From Verrucomicrobiota bacterium (GTDB lineage Bacteria > Verrucomicrobiota > Verrucomicrobiia > Limisphaerales > J093), in NCBI GenBank assembly GCA_016871715.1, contig VHCO01000012.1, positions 1 through 64,000 of the forward strand: a stretch of 64,000 nt of DNA, read 5' to 3'. Positions 12,383-39,246 of this stretch are shown here, piece after piece; within the stretch, counting starts at the first letter, position 1; the number at the start of each line of letters is the position of its first letter. Under the pieces are notes generated by a model that saw only the letters and a program-made list of their open reading frames with translations, made no database searches and was not told where the DNA came from. A program made the translations under genes and the position numbers.

Positions 12383-14470
12383 TTAGGGTGAGCCGTCTTC
12401 TTTCTCCCAAGGGACGACCCATTTATAGATGGTATGGTGGGGGCTTTCGTAGCTGCCATCGTCGGGGTCGGTGTCCGGTTCCTTGACGTCGTAAACCAGG
12501 ACGGGTTTCGCGCCGCGCATGTCGAAGTCGTGGGAGACGATCCGGGCCCCGTGGCGGAGTTTCTCGAGTTGGGGCATGAGGCGCACGTTGAGGTCGGGGA
12601 GGAGGTAAAGGGTGACAACGGAGGCCTCGCGGAGGTCGAGGGTGAAGATGTCGGCGTTGCGGATGGTGACGAGGTGTTCGACGCGGTTGGAGCGGACATT
12701 GGCCTGGGCCTCGCGAATGCGCTGGGGGTCGATGTCGAAGCCGACGGCTTTGACGCCGTATTTTTTGGCGGCGGTCACGACGATCCGGCCGTCGCCACAG
12801 CCGAGGTCGTAGACGACATCGCCGGTTTTGACCTCGGCCAACTCGAGCATTTTGTCCACGACGACCTGGGGTGTGGGCACGTAGATGACGTCGGGCGTTT
12901 GGGACAGGCCGATTTCGAAGGCGATCGCGTGCTCGCCCGGGAGTTTCTGGGGCCGTTGAATGACCAAGGCGTCCGATTGCTGGGTCCAGGTGAGGGGCTC
13001 GGCGCTGCCGAGCAGGCGGACGGCGGTGACGGAGCGCGAGGTGACGAGGGAATCGCGGCCCAGCGATGCGATGCGGATGTCGGCGGTGGGCCGGCCGAGG
13101 CAGAAGGCGTAGAGAGCGGTGCCTTTGGTGGTGAAGCGGATGTCGCTGGCGGAATAGGTTTGGGTGTCAGGTTCGGTACCTTGAGTGGAGGCGGCTGGAG
13201 TGCCTTCGCCGAACTCCTTCCAGGGGCGAGTGCCGTAGATGGCTTCGCCATGGATTTGCAGCCATTGGCCCACGGATTCGAGCAGGCGGACTTCGTCGGG
13301 GTCGAGGGTGCCGTCGGCGCGCAAGGGGATATTGAGGAGGAGGTTGCCGTTCTTGCTGACGACATCGATCAGCATGGCGATGACGGCGGTGGCGCTTAGG
13401 TAGCGATGGTTGTCGTTGTGGGCGCGGGCGTCGTATCCGCCGCCGATGGAGGTGGCGGTTTGCCAGGGGTAGGGAGCCAGCTCGTCGGCCTTACGGCGCT
13501 CGAGGTTCCAGACCAGGGCGGGGCGCTGGTGGGATTCGAGTTGCTGAGTGGCCAAGACGGCCTCGTTGCGGCCGTGCCAGGCGAGGTTCGAGTTGTAGAA
13601 GTGCGCGGCCAACTGCAAGCCGAGGTGTTCCCCCACCTCGCGCAGTGGCAGGACGTTGTCGTCGAAGTACAGGAGGTCGGGCCGGTACGAGTCCACGAGG
13701 TCTTTGACTCGGAGGAAGAACTTGTCGGCATAAGCGGCGCTGGGCGGGGCGCCGACGGGATGGGCTTGGGCATAGAGATCTTGCGGATCGTAACCGTTCC
13801 ACCACTGACCGCTGCCATCGGCCTTCGTGAGTCGGCCGTCATAGGGCACTCCGGCCAGCGGCCCGGTGGTGTCGGCGCCCTGGGCGGGTTCGTACCAGGT
13901 CCAGGCGCGTGCGGCGTGGACGGTGACGCCGAAGCGTAGGCCGGCGGCGCGTGCGGCGTTGGCCCAGAGCCCGATAAGGTCTTTGTTGGGGCCGAGGTTG
14001 ACGGCGTTCCAGGGCTGGTATTTGGAATTGAAGTTGTCGAAGTTGCAGTGGTGGTTGGCCAAGGCGACGAAGTATTTCGCGCCGGCGCGCTGGTAGAGGG
14101 CGAGGAGGTTGGCGGGATCGAAGTTCTCCGCCTTCCAGAGGCGGCAGACGTCCTTGAACCCGACCTTCGAGGGATGGCCGTAGCGTGCGAGGTGGGCTTG
14201 GTATAGGGGATGGCCCTGGAGGTAAAGTTTGCGGGCGTACCCATCGCCCTGCTCGGGCTCGGACTGAGGTCCCCAGTGTGCCCAAATGCCGAACTTGGCG
14301 TCGCGGAACCAGTCCGGGCACCGGTACTGCTCACGCAGGGATTCCCAGGAGGGTTGGTAGGGACCGGGGGCGATGGTGCGCGCGGGATTCTCGGCGGCGG
14401 TCAGGGCGGCTAGGAGCACGCCGGCGGCGCCGGCGGCCAGCCCATGCGGTATCGGCAGAGGTCTGTTCAT
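12383..14470 (-). CDS. Alpha-L-fucosidase (GH29-like) fused to a C-terminal class I SAM-dependent methyltransferase
   Basis: N-terminal CPDWFRDAKFGIWAHWGPQSEPEQGDGYARKLY, GLWANAARAAGLRFGVTVH; C-terminal VIYVPTPQVVVDKMLELAEVKTGDVVYDLGCGDGRIVV...VTLYLLPDLN in one frame. Confidence 0.88.
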   Translation of the reverse strand: MNRPLPIPHGLAAGAAGVLLAALTAAENPARTIAPGPYQPSWESLREQYRCPDWFRDAKFGIWAHWGPQSEPEQGDGYARKLYLQGHPLYQAHLARYGHPSKVGFKDVCRLWKAENFDPANLLALYQRAGAKYFVALANHHCNFDNFNSKYQPWNAVNLGPNKDLIGLWANAARAAGLRFGVTVHAARAWTWYEPAQGADTTGPLAGVPYDGRLTKADGSGQWWNGYDPQDLYAQAHPVGAPPSAAYADKFFLRVKDLVDSYRPDLLYFDDNVLPLREVGEHLGLQLAAHFYNSNLAWHGRNEAVLATQQLESHQRPALVWNLERRKADELAPYPWQTATSIGGGYDARAHNDNHRYLSATAVIAMLIDVVSKNGNLLLNIPLRADGTLDPDEVRLLESVGQWLQIHGEAIYGTRPWKEFGEGTPAASTQGTEPDTQTYSASDIRFTTKGTALYAFCLGRPTADIRIASLGRDSLVTSRSVTAVRLLGSAEPLTWTQQSDALVIQRPQKLPGEHAIAFEIGLSQTPDVIYVPTPQVVVDKMLELAEVKTGDVVYDLGCGDGRIVVTAAKKYGVKAVGFDIDPQRIREAQANVRSNRVEHLVTIRNADIFTLDLREASVVTLYLLPDLNVRLMPQLEKLRHGARIVSHDFDMRGAKPVLVYDVKEPDTDPDDGSYESPHHTIYKWVVPWEKEDGSP

Positions 14471-14591: not shown

Positions 14592-17225
14592 CTACTCGAC
14601 GGAGCCAGCCGATTCGGTCCACACCAGCGCGGGGGGTGACGGCACATGCCAGAGCGATTCCCAGTAGCGCTGTTCGGTGGCGTAGATGTCGATGGGATCG
14701 TTCGGGGGGAGGTCGGCTGGCAAGACGCCGTAGCGCTGCATTTCGCGCACCCAATCGGGGCGGGGGCGAAACCCGGGCATATCGAATCGTTTGATTTGGT
14801 CAAGCCGTTGGTGGCCGGCGGCGCAGAGGGCTAGGAGGGTGCGATAGTCGGGGTCGGCGGTATCGGCGAAGACGGCGACCGGCGCTTTGGTTTGGGGATC
14901 GCGGCAGAGGCCCCAGCCGCCGGCGGCCTCAGCCAGGGGCGCCAAGAGGAGAATGGACCGCTCGGGTTGGGTCAGGTTAAACACGATGTGGCGGCTGGTG
15001 TTGAGCCGGGGATCGCCCAGTTCCGGTTGCCAGAAGGAGACCCCGCGTTCATCCGCGAGGCTACGGGGTAACAGGCGCCCGGGTTGGTCGTGGCACCCGC
15101 CGCATCGTTGGGCGATCACTGGGGCAGCCGCGCGGGTGGTCGGCCAGTCCCAATCGGCGTGGATCTGCTTGTTCTCGGCATAGCCGCCGATCATGCCGGT
15201 GCCAAGGGCGGCGTAGGTTCCGGGGTAAGCGGCGCCCGACTCGATCCAGAGGCGGAGGGTTTTCTTCTGACGGTCCGTGGCGCGCACGTCGTAATGCGAG
15301 CCATCGAGCAGGGTGAGCAGTCGGCTCGAGGAGGAGCCGAGGGTCCGCGGGGCATAGTTGCTCTGGGGGCGGTTGCGGCCGTCGGAGAAGAGCCGGGCGA
15401 TGGTCAGCATGTAGTAGCTGTGACTGAACATGGGACCGCGGTCGCCGCTCAGGATCAAACGCCCGGCGCGTGGGCCGCCGGCGGTGGTTTTCTGATAGCC
15501 ATGACAACTCACGCAGAGGTCATCGAGGATGGGTTGGACATCGCGCGGAAAGTCGATCACCTCGGGCACCTCCTCGATGGGCTCGATGCGGCTGGCGGCG
15601 CGGCGCGCCGCCACGGCGGTGAGGGTGGCGGCGGCCGTATGGTGGGGTGTGCGGGTCCGTTGCTCGTGGCAACCGACACAACTGCTGATCTCGCCCGGTT
15701 GCACGGTGAGCCAGCTTTGCATGCGTTTGACCGCAAGGTCGTGCTCGTCCAAGGCCACAAAGAAGAGACTGCGTAAGGCGGGCAACTCGATGTAAGCGGA
15801 GCCGTCCGGTTCGACGGGGACGGTGCCAAGAATCCGTTCGAGGGTGAAGGTGCCCCCATAGCTGATCGGGTCCATGCCGCCGGTGTAATGGATCGGCATG
15901 GGCAGGCTTTCGAGGACCAGGAGTTTCTTGATGTCGCCGGGCTTCACGCCCTCCATGTTGCGGCCTTCGTAGACGTTGGCTAAAACCAAGTGACCGGTCG
16001 CTTGGGCAGGGTTAACGCGGTCCGGAACCACGGGCTCCCGGGGGCGAGGGGTGAGGGGGCGCGGTTCGTGCAGGTGCATGCCCGCCCGCACATCGGTTTC
16101 GGGGAGTCGGAAGATGGCTTGCTGTTGGCCGGCGTCGTCCAGCAGGACCAGTTGCGGTCCGAGGGCGGCCATGAAGGAGGTTTCGGCAAAGGCCCACGGA
16201 TCGTAGAACTGATTGCCTTTGCTGATGCGGCGGGCGGAGGCGAGGTGATCGGGGCCGGCGCCGAGGTCGAGGATGGTCAGGGTGCCGGCGTGTTCGCGCT
16301 GGCCATGGCCCGGGGAGAAGTTGGCCACGATCTTCTCCGAGCCGGGGATGGGCTTGGCATCGATCATGACGATGCCGGGGTGTTGGTTGCCAAAGGCGAT
16401 CATCTGCCCCGTGCCGTCGGGGTTCGAGACCCAGAGGTGATGGTAATCGACCTGACTGCGGTCCACGTACTCCCAACGGGTGTAGAGCAGGCGGCCGTCT
16501 CGTAGGGGCCACGGGGTGTTGTCATGCTCGGTGTTACTCGAGATGGGCCGGACGTTGCGCCCGTCGGCGTCGCACCGGTACATGATGGCGACCTGCGTCA
16601 GCCAGCAGTTGACCCACCGCTTACAGCGGGTCGACACAAACACAATGTCTCCGTTGGGCAGATACGTCGGCTCGATGTCGTCATAGTCGCCGTCCGTCAA
16701 CTGACGCAGGTCGGTGCCGTCAGCGTCGATCTCGTACAGCAGGTAGTTCTCGGTGCCGCCGCGCCGGTAAGAGAACAGGATCTTGCCGCCGTCGTAATGG
16801 ACTTGCGGATCGCGAATCCCCCCCTGCGGGTCCTCGAGCAAGGTTGTCAAGGCGCCCGTGACGAGGTTCCACCGATAGAGCTTGCTGCCCTCGCGCCACG
16901 CCTTGCGCCCTGGGTCGTCAGCGTAGTAACCCAGGTTGGCATACCAGTGACCGTCAGTCTCGTTCATCTTGCGCGCCGCAAAGACGATGTCCTGGACCCC
17001 GGCCATCGGGCCGGCGCGGAACCGGTCCAACAAGGAGCCGGCTGCGGCGTTGGGCTGACCGCCGGAACTCGCCGCCCAGGCCTCGCCGGCGAGCAAGAGC
17101 CCGCCTAGGCAGAGCAGCGCGGTCCAGGGGGCGCGCATTCGAAGAGGGCGCAACCCACAGGTGCCGGCTGGCCGGCGGCTGAACAAGGAGTAGGGACGGT
17201 GGCGGGGGAGAAGACGAATCGTCAT
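14592..17225 (-). CDS. HzsA-related / PD40 beta-propeller protein with CXXCH heme-binding motifs
   Basis: Propeller-like repeats (IEPTYLPNGDIVFVSTRCKRW); three CXXCH motifs: CVGCH, CVSCH, CGGCH. Confidence 0.75.
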   Translation of the reverse strand: MTIRLLPRHRPYSLFSRRPAGTCGLRPLRMRAPWTALLCLGGLLLAGEAWAASSGGQPNAAAGSLLDRFRAGPMAGVQDIVFAARKMNETDGHWYANLGYYADDPGRKAWREGSKLYRWNLVTGALTTLLEDPQGGIRDPQVHYDGGKILFSYRRGGTENYLLYEIDADGTDLRQLTDGDYDDIEPTYLPNGDIVFVSTRCKRWVNCWLTQVAIMYRCDADGRNVRPISSNTEHDNTPWPLRDGRLLYTRWEYVDRSQVDYHHLWVSNPDGTGQMIAFGNQHPGIVMIDAKPIPGSEKIVANFSPGHGQREHAGTLTILDLGAGPDHLASARRISKGNQFYDPWAFAETSFMAALGPQLVLLDDAGQQQAIFRLPETDVRAGMHLHEPRPLTPRPREPVVPDRVNPAQATGHLVLANVYEGRNMEGVKPGDIKKLLVLESLPMPIHYTGGMDPISYGGTFTLERILGTVPVEPDGSAYIELPALRSLFFVALDEHDLAVKRMQSWLTVQPGEISSCVGCHEQRTRTPHHTAAATLTAVAARRAASRIEPIEEVPEVIDFPRDVQPILDDLCVSCHGYQKTTAGGPRAGRLILSGDRGPMFSHSYYMLTIARLFSDGRNRPQSNYAPRTLGSSSSRLLTLLDGSHYDVRATDRQKKTLRLWIESGAAYPGTYAALGTGMIGGYAENKQIHADWDWPTTRAAAPVIAQRCGGCHDQPGRLLPRSLADERGVSFWQPELGDPRLNTSRHIVFNLTQPERSILLLAPLAEAAGGWGLCRDPQTKAPVAVFADTADPDYRTLLALCAAGHQRLDQIKRFDMPGFRPRPDWVREMQRYGVLPADLPPNDPIDIYATEQRYWESLWHVPSPPALVWTESAGSVE

Positions 17226-37687: not shown

Positions 37688-39246
37688 ATGAACAAACTCG
37701 CTTCTCGCATCCGCGAGCTGTCGGCAACGCTTGGTGCTTTGGCGGGATTCGCCGCCCTGGCGGGCGACTGGCCCATCGCCCCAGGCCCCTTCGAGCCTAC
37801 CATGGATTCGCTCACGAACTACGCCTGCCCGGAGTGGTTTCGGGACGCCAAGTTCGGCATTTGGTCGCACTGGGGACCCCAGTCGGTGCCGATGGCCGGC
37901 GATTGGTATGCGAAGCACATGTACGTGGAGAGCAACCCGCGCGGCCAATACCGACATCACCTCGAGAACTACGGCCACCCGTCCACCAACGGCTGGAAGG
38001 ACATCATCCCGCTTTGGAAGGCGGAGAAGTGGGATCCCCAACGGCTCATGCGTCTCTACCGTCAGGCTGGTGCGAAGTATTTCGTCAGCATGGCGTCGCA
38101 CCACGACAACTTCTCGCTCTGGAACGACCCGTTCCACCGCTGGAACACGTGGCCATGGGGCCGCGCCGCGACGTGGTTGGGGACTGGCAGAAGGCGGCCA
38201 AGCAACAGGGGCTGAAATTCGGCGTGTCCGAGCACCTCGGGGCGAGTTTCACCTGGTGGCAGCCGAACAAAGGCAGCGATACCAACGGGCCGCTCGCCGG
38301 CGTGCCCTACGACGGGGCGGATGCGCAGTGGCAGGATCTCTACCACTGGCCTGCGGCGCCGGGCGACGCCGCCTGGTACAGCACCGATGCGCGTTGGCAC
38401 CAGCAATGGTACAAGCGGATCAAGGGGCTGGTGGATCAATACCGGCCGGACCAGCTCTATTCCGACGGCGCTCTGCCCTTTGGCGAAGTGGGGCGCTCGC
38501 TGGTGGCCCACTACTACAACGCCAACCAGGCCGCGCACGGGGGAAAGCTCGAGGCGCTCTACTGCCTGAAGGACTGGCGGACGCGAGCCGGGCATGGCGA
38601 CTACGTGGAGGGCATTGGCGTGCAAGACGTCGAGCGGGGCGGCCTTGCCGACATCAAGCCGGCGCCCTGGCAGACGGACACGTCGATCGGCGACTGGTTC
38701 TACAACCAGAACTGGAAAGCCAAGGACACCGGCACGATGTATCGGTCGCCCAAGTGGGTGATCCAGACGTTGGTGGATGTCGTCAGCAAGAACGGCAACA
38801 TGCTGCTCAACGTGGTGCAGCGCCCCGACGGCTCGCTCGATCCTCAAGTCGAACAACTGCTCGCGGAGGTCGGCGCGTGGATGAAGATCAATGGGGAGGC
38901 GATCTTCAAGACGCGCCCGTGGTTGACCTCGGGCGAGGGTGCCACCCAGACTGAAAGCGGCCATTTCAAGGAAGACTTCGCGTTCAGCGCGCAAGATGTC
39001 CGCTTCACCCGGTCGAAGGATGGCAAGACCGTCTATGCGATCCTGCTGGGCTGGCCGGGAGACGGCGCGACGATCACGATCCGCTCGCTGGCCGAGGGCA
39101 AAGGTCCGCAAGCGATTCGCTCGGTCAAATTGCTCGGTAGCCCGGGGAATCTGAGGTGGAGTCGGCAGGCGGAGGGGTTGACGGTGACGTTGCCGGCCAC
39201 GGCACCGTGCCCGCCCGCCGTAGCGCTCAAGCTGGCCGCCCGATGA
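37688..39246 (+). pseudogene. Alpha-L-fucosidase (GH29-like) split by a -1 frameshift near 38152
   Basis: Frame 1 CPEWFRDAKFGIWSHWGPQSVPMAGDWYAKHMY...WNDPFHRWNTW; continues in another frame as (A)MGPRRDVVGDWQKAAKQQGLKFGVSEHLGASFTW to 39246. Confidence 0.88.

Follow-up and report, generated by a model that had tools for sequence, protein, structure and literature searches.

A GH29 glycosidase fused to a predicted exported methyltransferase module of the aKMT/FAM173 type

The 64,000-nucleotide stretch of DNA analysed here (the window) encodes a protein in which a leader-bearing GH29 glycosidase is fused to a class I methyltransferase (MTase) domain related to the archaeal protein-lysine MTase aKMT. 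This MTase module recurs in several phyla, alone and on many unrelated secreted enzymes, its SAM-binding site is conserved, and its genes are linked to a LAT-type transporter. The recurrence suggests that SAM-dependent methylation takes place outside the cytoplasm in some bacteria. Bacterial SAM-dependent methylation is regarded as intracellular, with prepilin peptidase as an inner-membrane case. If the exported family is real and its SAM site intact, then either SAM is delivered beyond the cytoplasm or a classic fold is reused there. The reading toward which we lean, with some reserve, is that of a secreted GH29 glycosidase carrying a tethered and probably active exported MTase that would methylate proteins outside with SAM supplied by the LAT transporter.

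The fusion gene and its glycosidase half

The original prediction of a single uninterrupted ORF containing a GH29 fucosidase and a class I MTase is borne out by Pfam and PDB matches over 695 aa without a stop. The coding sequence runs on the minus strand from an ATG at 14470 to a stop at 12383 and contains no N. In Pfam, PF01120 scores 269 bits (cut-off 25.2), and generic MTase families match from residue ~546. The features of this gene, and of a second GH29 gene in the window, are as follows.

12383..14470, minus strand: fusion ORF of 695 aa, comprising leader, GH29 domain, fucosidase C-terminal domain and aKMT/FAM173-like MTase
14393..14470, minus strand: Sec-type signal peptide, residues 1-26 (MNRPLPIPHGLAAGAAGVLLAALTAA), called by the leader heuristic
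13244..14380, minus strand: GH29 catalytic domain, residues 31-409 (PF01120 Alpha_L_fucos, E 1e-79)
13661..13663, minus strand: Asp270, putative nucleophile by alignment to 7lnp, retained in homologues
12926..13147, minus strand: Fucosidase_C domain, residues 442-515 (PF16757, E 3e-7)
12395..12901, minus strand: aKMT/FAM173-like class I MTase module, residues 524-692 (PDB match, structural model and Foldseek)
12869..12880, minus strand: VPTP motif, residues 531-534, common to aKMT and conserved at >=93% per column in the exported family
12785..12808, minus strand: predicted SAM-binding motif I, DLGCGDGR, residues 555-562, by alignment to aKMT
37769..39246, plus strand: second GH29 gene, without an MTase, frameshifted at ~38.15 kb

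The reading frame is free of stops and frameshifts from one half of the fusion to the other. The last strand of Fucosidase_C (HAIAFEIGL) is followed at most two residues later by TPDVIYVPTP, which is the start of the conserved region in free MTases, and GC3 stays at 0.84-0.89 across the GH29 domain, the junction and the MTase with no break. An assembly chimera is ruled out by orthologous fusions in two further genomes. As to a viral or mobile origin, a scan of viral contigs gave no match. Structure prediction for the full-length protein gives a mean pLDDT of 59.8, with a poor GH29 half. The product of a neighbouring gene (14592-17225, minus strand) has a match to HZS_alpha (hydrazine synthase alpha middle) and CXXCH motifs.

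The solved structures nearest to the GH29 half are an alpha-L-fucosidase (7snk) and an exo-alpha-L-galactosidase (7ljj). Because the latter is among the closest solved enzymes, the label of fucosidase is itself uncertain, and alpha-L-galactosidase activity would be equally possible. The window protein shares the catalytic and C-terminal domains with 7ljj/7lnp and 7snk, which have no MTase. The nucleophile also aligns: Asp270 pairs with the Asp that 7lnp carries as Asn. The protein departs from its GH29 homologues at eight columns that are 94-100% conserved among them, including W77G, W345G, D322N and G326R. At the positions considered for acid/base function and the sugar pocket, Glu324 is retained, but the protein differs at W77, K309, D322, G326 and W345, all of them in columns of 97-100% conservation. 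In the other GH29 homologues that were compared, such changes number one to five each. These substitutions point to altered specificity or a weakening of the GH29 half, rather than a standard fucosidase. The second GH29 gene lacks an MTase, as had been predicted, and its frameshift reflects either a broken gene or a sequencing error. Its active-site Trp residues are intact, unlike those of the fusion.

The methyltransferase module and its predicted export

The solved structures nearest to the MTase domain are those of the protein-lysine MTase aKMT from Sulfolobus islandicus (5fa8, 5fad, 5jwj) and the structure of a Salinibacter protein in complex with SAH (5bxy). In a PDB search with the full-length fusion protein, 5fa8 is matched at E 1e-39. 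A model of the domain built from 46 sequences has a mean pLDDT of 89.9, and its top Foldseek match by a wide margin is 5fad (target TM-score 0.93, rmsd 1.3). The aKMT structures matched by the model were solved with SAM and SAH, and family knowledge suggests that the C-terminal domain could bind SAM. Relative to aKMT and aKMT4, the target-normalised TM-scores are 0.90-0.93 with 46-47% identity in the structural alignment, the VPTP motif is shared, and motif I (DLGCGDGR) is identical. Fold, VPTP motif and motif I signature all agree with membership in the aKMT/FAM173 family. The score against NF041081, an archaeal equivalog of NCBIfam, is 139.8 and falls below the cut-off of 200, so by sequence comparison the domain is a homologue of aKMT and not a member of that equivalog.

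Conservation within the module is consistent with a functional SAM site. All 52 columns that are conserved at >=93% among 129 domain copies hold the consensus residue in the fusion protein, and conservation is equal in fused (31) and free (81) copies. Gly559, which by counting from the alignment is the equivalent of Gly38 in aKMT4, is invariant in all 129 copies. aKMT4 acts broadly as a lysine MTase and is also its own substrate, and its Gly38 to Arg variant is described as methyltransferase-deficient (PMC4639711). Judged by the alignments of both halves, the MTase has stayed constrained while the GH29 domain has been diverging. The human proteins FAM173A and FAM173B (ANT-KMT and ATPSc-KMT) are reported to be homologues of aKMT and are lysine MTases whose targets are membrane carriers and ATP synthase (PMC9006661). 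They differ from the window's domain, by description rather than by alignment, in being mitochondrial, membrane-anchored, non-secreted and free of a glycosidase.

What sets the window's domain apart from these relatives is its predicted location. The aKMT protein is cytoplasmic, stand-alone and archaeal, whereas the domain studied here is fused and predicted to be exported. A location with access to SAM, in the cytoplasm or matrix, would be expected of an aKMT/FAM173-type enzyme, but each of the three GH29 fusions begins with a leader, as does almost every homologue. Leaders were called by a rule that calls for a positive n-region, a 10-residue uncharged hydrophobic core and a start codon upstream of the domain; this is a home-made heuristic, which makes a few false calls, and not SignalP. 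Applied to 131 distinct MTase ORFs whose 5' side is intact, it assigns a leader of the Sec or lipobox type to 120 (19 of the lipobox type). As many as five of these assignments are internal artefacts, which leaves ~115-120. In a control set of 542 random windows of 60 residues, 36 (6.6%) satisfy the rule.

Export is hard to avoid because two types of leader occur on one domain and because the domain is fused to leader-bearing hydrolases. The export and modularity of the family are well supported by these sequence features, and export of an active enzyme is probable. The puzzle raised by the original prediction, that a secreted hydrolase is joined to a SAM-dependent enzyme, is real, and it is larger than was claimed because the whole MTase family appears to be exported. 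Searches of open-licence papers for exported, periplasmic or secreted MTases, for prokaryotic FAM173 proteins and for GH-MTase fusions turned up no description of this family, which may have been described elsewhere.

Recurrence, partners and transporter linkage

The distribution of the module was traced with a scan of the genomes of 85,000 species, from which the best 80 of 578 loci were used, and with two group surveys that find the MTase in 29 of 320 genomes of the host's order and in 22 of 298 genomes of a Phycisphaerae sample. Most of the genomes compared are MAGs. Relatives in the host's order carry a free MTase gene with its own leader that is 62-76% identical over the domain; it lies elsewhere in the genome, and no relative was seen to encode the two halves as adjacent genes. 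Close GH29 homologues of the fusion have no MTase. The same fusion occurs in two Phycisphaerae genomes with an overall identity of 58-61%, and leaders are present in both orthologues. One of them is complete (G935, locus L178, 1798-3978) and retains the Trp residues that the window fusion has lost. The other (G706) is split on two contigs, with the C-terminal half at loci L066 and L180 and the leader and N-terminal half at L179. Within the gene at L179 (contig C268) there is a switch to unrelated sequence, which is probably a misassembly.

N-terminal partners of the module identified with Pfam are GH9 and PQQ_2 (two loci each), 3keto-disac_hyd, Phosphodiest, Endonuclease_NS, Methyltransf_3 and GH29. 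Among the best 80 of the 578 scan loci and the two surveys, there are at least seven Pfam-verified partner families as well as tandem copies, and the diversity of partners by itself calls for seven or more separate fusions. On a poorly resolved tree, a parsimony count comes to 24 switches of partner label, a figure that lies toward the upper side. A further partner that recurs in Phycisphaerae (two loci) has no Pfam match. Double or triple tandem copies of the MTase occur at six loci. At five of these, the products are predicted exported triple-tandem aKMT-like proteins of Phycisphaerae and their relatives. In a divergent branch (L029, L058, L215 and L221) the exported MTase is N-terminal and is followed by ~270-310 aa of uncharacterised C-terminal sequence.

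In a quick MTase tree, which is poorly resolved, the fusions are scattered. The GH29 tree places the window protein beside unfused homologues, but a grouping of the three fusions is not rejected (AU p 0.064), so that a single origin is neither favoured nor dismissed. The suggestion that the gene might be a recent fusion holds insofar as it is a fusion, but it is only one among many involving a promiscuous exported module.

LAT-type transporters of the APC superfamily, which normally carry amino acids, are a recurrent neighbour of the MTase gene. Neighbour families were found by an all-against-all comparison of ORFs flanking MTase genes, and the best profile for this one is TIGR00911, with a score far below the cut-off. 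A profile search finds the LAT gene immediately adjoining the MTase gene on the same strand at 18 distinct loci from seven phyla, and no case on the opposite strand among the adjacent loci. LAT and the aKMT-like MTase co-occur in 13 genomes of the host's order versus 1.8 expected (hypergeometric p 8e-11, a value that ignores shared ancestry). In all three genomes with a GH29 fusion, the LAT gene is not beside the fusion gene and instead directly follows a leader-bearing O-MTase of the PF01596 type. The instance in the host genome is listed here.

Host genome (G000), contig C120:12074-13540 (loci L227 and L236), minus strand: LAT gene after a leader-bearing PF01596-type O-MTase

In a set of 22 LAT loci, the transporter gene comes after an exported O-MTase in 12 and after an exported aKMT-like MTase in 2; at locus L085 the partner of LAT is a fusion of the two types. 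By these leaders the PF01596-type O-MTase is a second family of exported SAM-dependent MTases. Two exported MTase families that share one transporter have SAM and SAH as their common factor, and the linkage therefore suggests that LAT exchanges one for the other, a function that we put forward tentatively. There is precedent in the fungal amino-acid permeases Sam3 and Gap4, which are APC-family proteins that carry SAM (PMC5177730). They are yeast plasma-membrane importers of another APC branch. One could also imagine that LAT is itself the substrate for methylation, as membrane carriers are for FAM173A. This agrees less well with the linkage to O-MTases. An exported MTase and LAT pair also occurs in a MAG titled Bordetella parapertussis (CAMDFL010000048.1), a name probably given in error to an environmental bin.

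Possible roles of the fused methyltransferase

In the reading that we prefer, the leader of the GH29 domain would export the whole chain, in place of the MTase's own leader that free relatives have kept. The MTase would then methylate proteins beyond the inner membrane, and the fusion may hold it at or near the site of action of the glycosidase, a purpose for the tether that we infer. SAM would be supplied by the LAT/APC-type transporter, perhaps by SAM/SAH exchange. Confidence is not uniform across these steps. Methyl transfer outside the cytoplasm seems about evenly balanced, and lysine residues of proteins, which are suggested by homology to aKMT, are somewhat doubtful as the targets. Extended to other genomes, this would amount to dedicated extracytoplasmic methylation in several phyla by two exported MTase families in free, lipid-anchored and hydrolase-fused forms with SAM from an adjacent LAT/APC-type SAM/SAH exchanger, which we offer as a tentative generalization. 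We know of no established SAM pool in the periplasm of these bacteria or outside their cells, and this counts against the preferred reading. So do the absence of LAT beside the fusion gene, the role of Sam3 and Gap4 as importers, the score below the NF041081 cut-off and the loss of invariant residues from the GH29 half.

Extracytoplasmic SAM not being known, the module might instead have kept its fold without methylating anything and act as an exported binding or scaffold domain, with SAH, nucleosides or some partner at the surface as its ligand, which would explain its fusion to secreted enzymes of nearly every kind. Its promiscuous partners and triple tandem repeats do resemble those of a binding module, and the non-methyltransferase role mentioned in the original prediction stays among the readings considered. 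We consider it unlikely, since the exported family shows no variation at the SAM-site residues, among them the glycine on which aKMT4 depends, and since one transporter linked to two exported MTase families fits catalysis better. Fusion as a neutral passenger, in which a stop loss placed a nearby exported MTase gene in frame without joint function, would agree with the scatter of fusions on the MTase tree and with the drift of the GH29 half at conserved sites. It is rather improbable given that there are at least seven partner families, that orthologues of the GH29 fusion are spread over two phyla and that the MTase half is fully conserved.

The original prediction also proposed an O-methylfucose role, and the MTase could act on the sugar of the GH29 domain, for example by O-methylating fucose, or both could process O-methylated glycans. 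Glycosidases do recur as partners (GH29 three times and GH9 twice), and the change of two invariant Trp residues to Gly could open the sugar pocket. The complete Phycisphaerae fusion retains these Trp residues, however, the module is also joined to a nuclease, a phosphodiesterase, a PQQ propeller and an O-MTase, and its nearest solved and characterised relatives are protein-lysine MTases, all of which disfavours this role and leaves it decidedly improbable. SAM is abundant in the cytoplasm, and aKMT itself is cytoplasmic, which would suit an MTase that works there by way of an internal translation start or an unused leader. This is very improbable, because almost every member of the family has a leader, in some cases with a lipobox, and because no credible internal start precedes the VPTP motif: a TTG at residue 502 lacks a ribosome site, and the other starts, from residue 531 onward, would truncate that motif.
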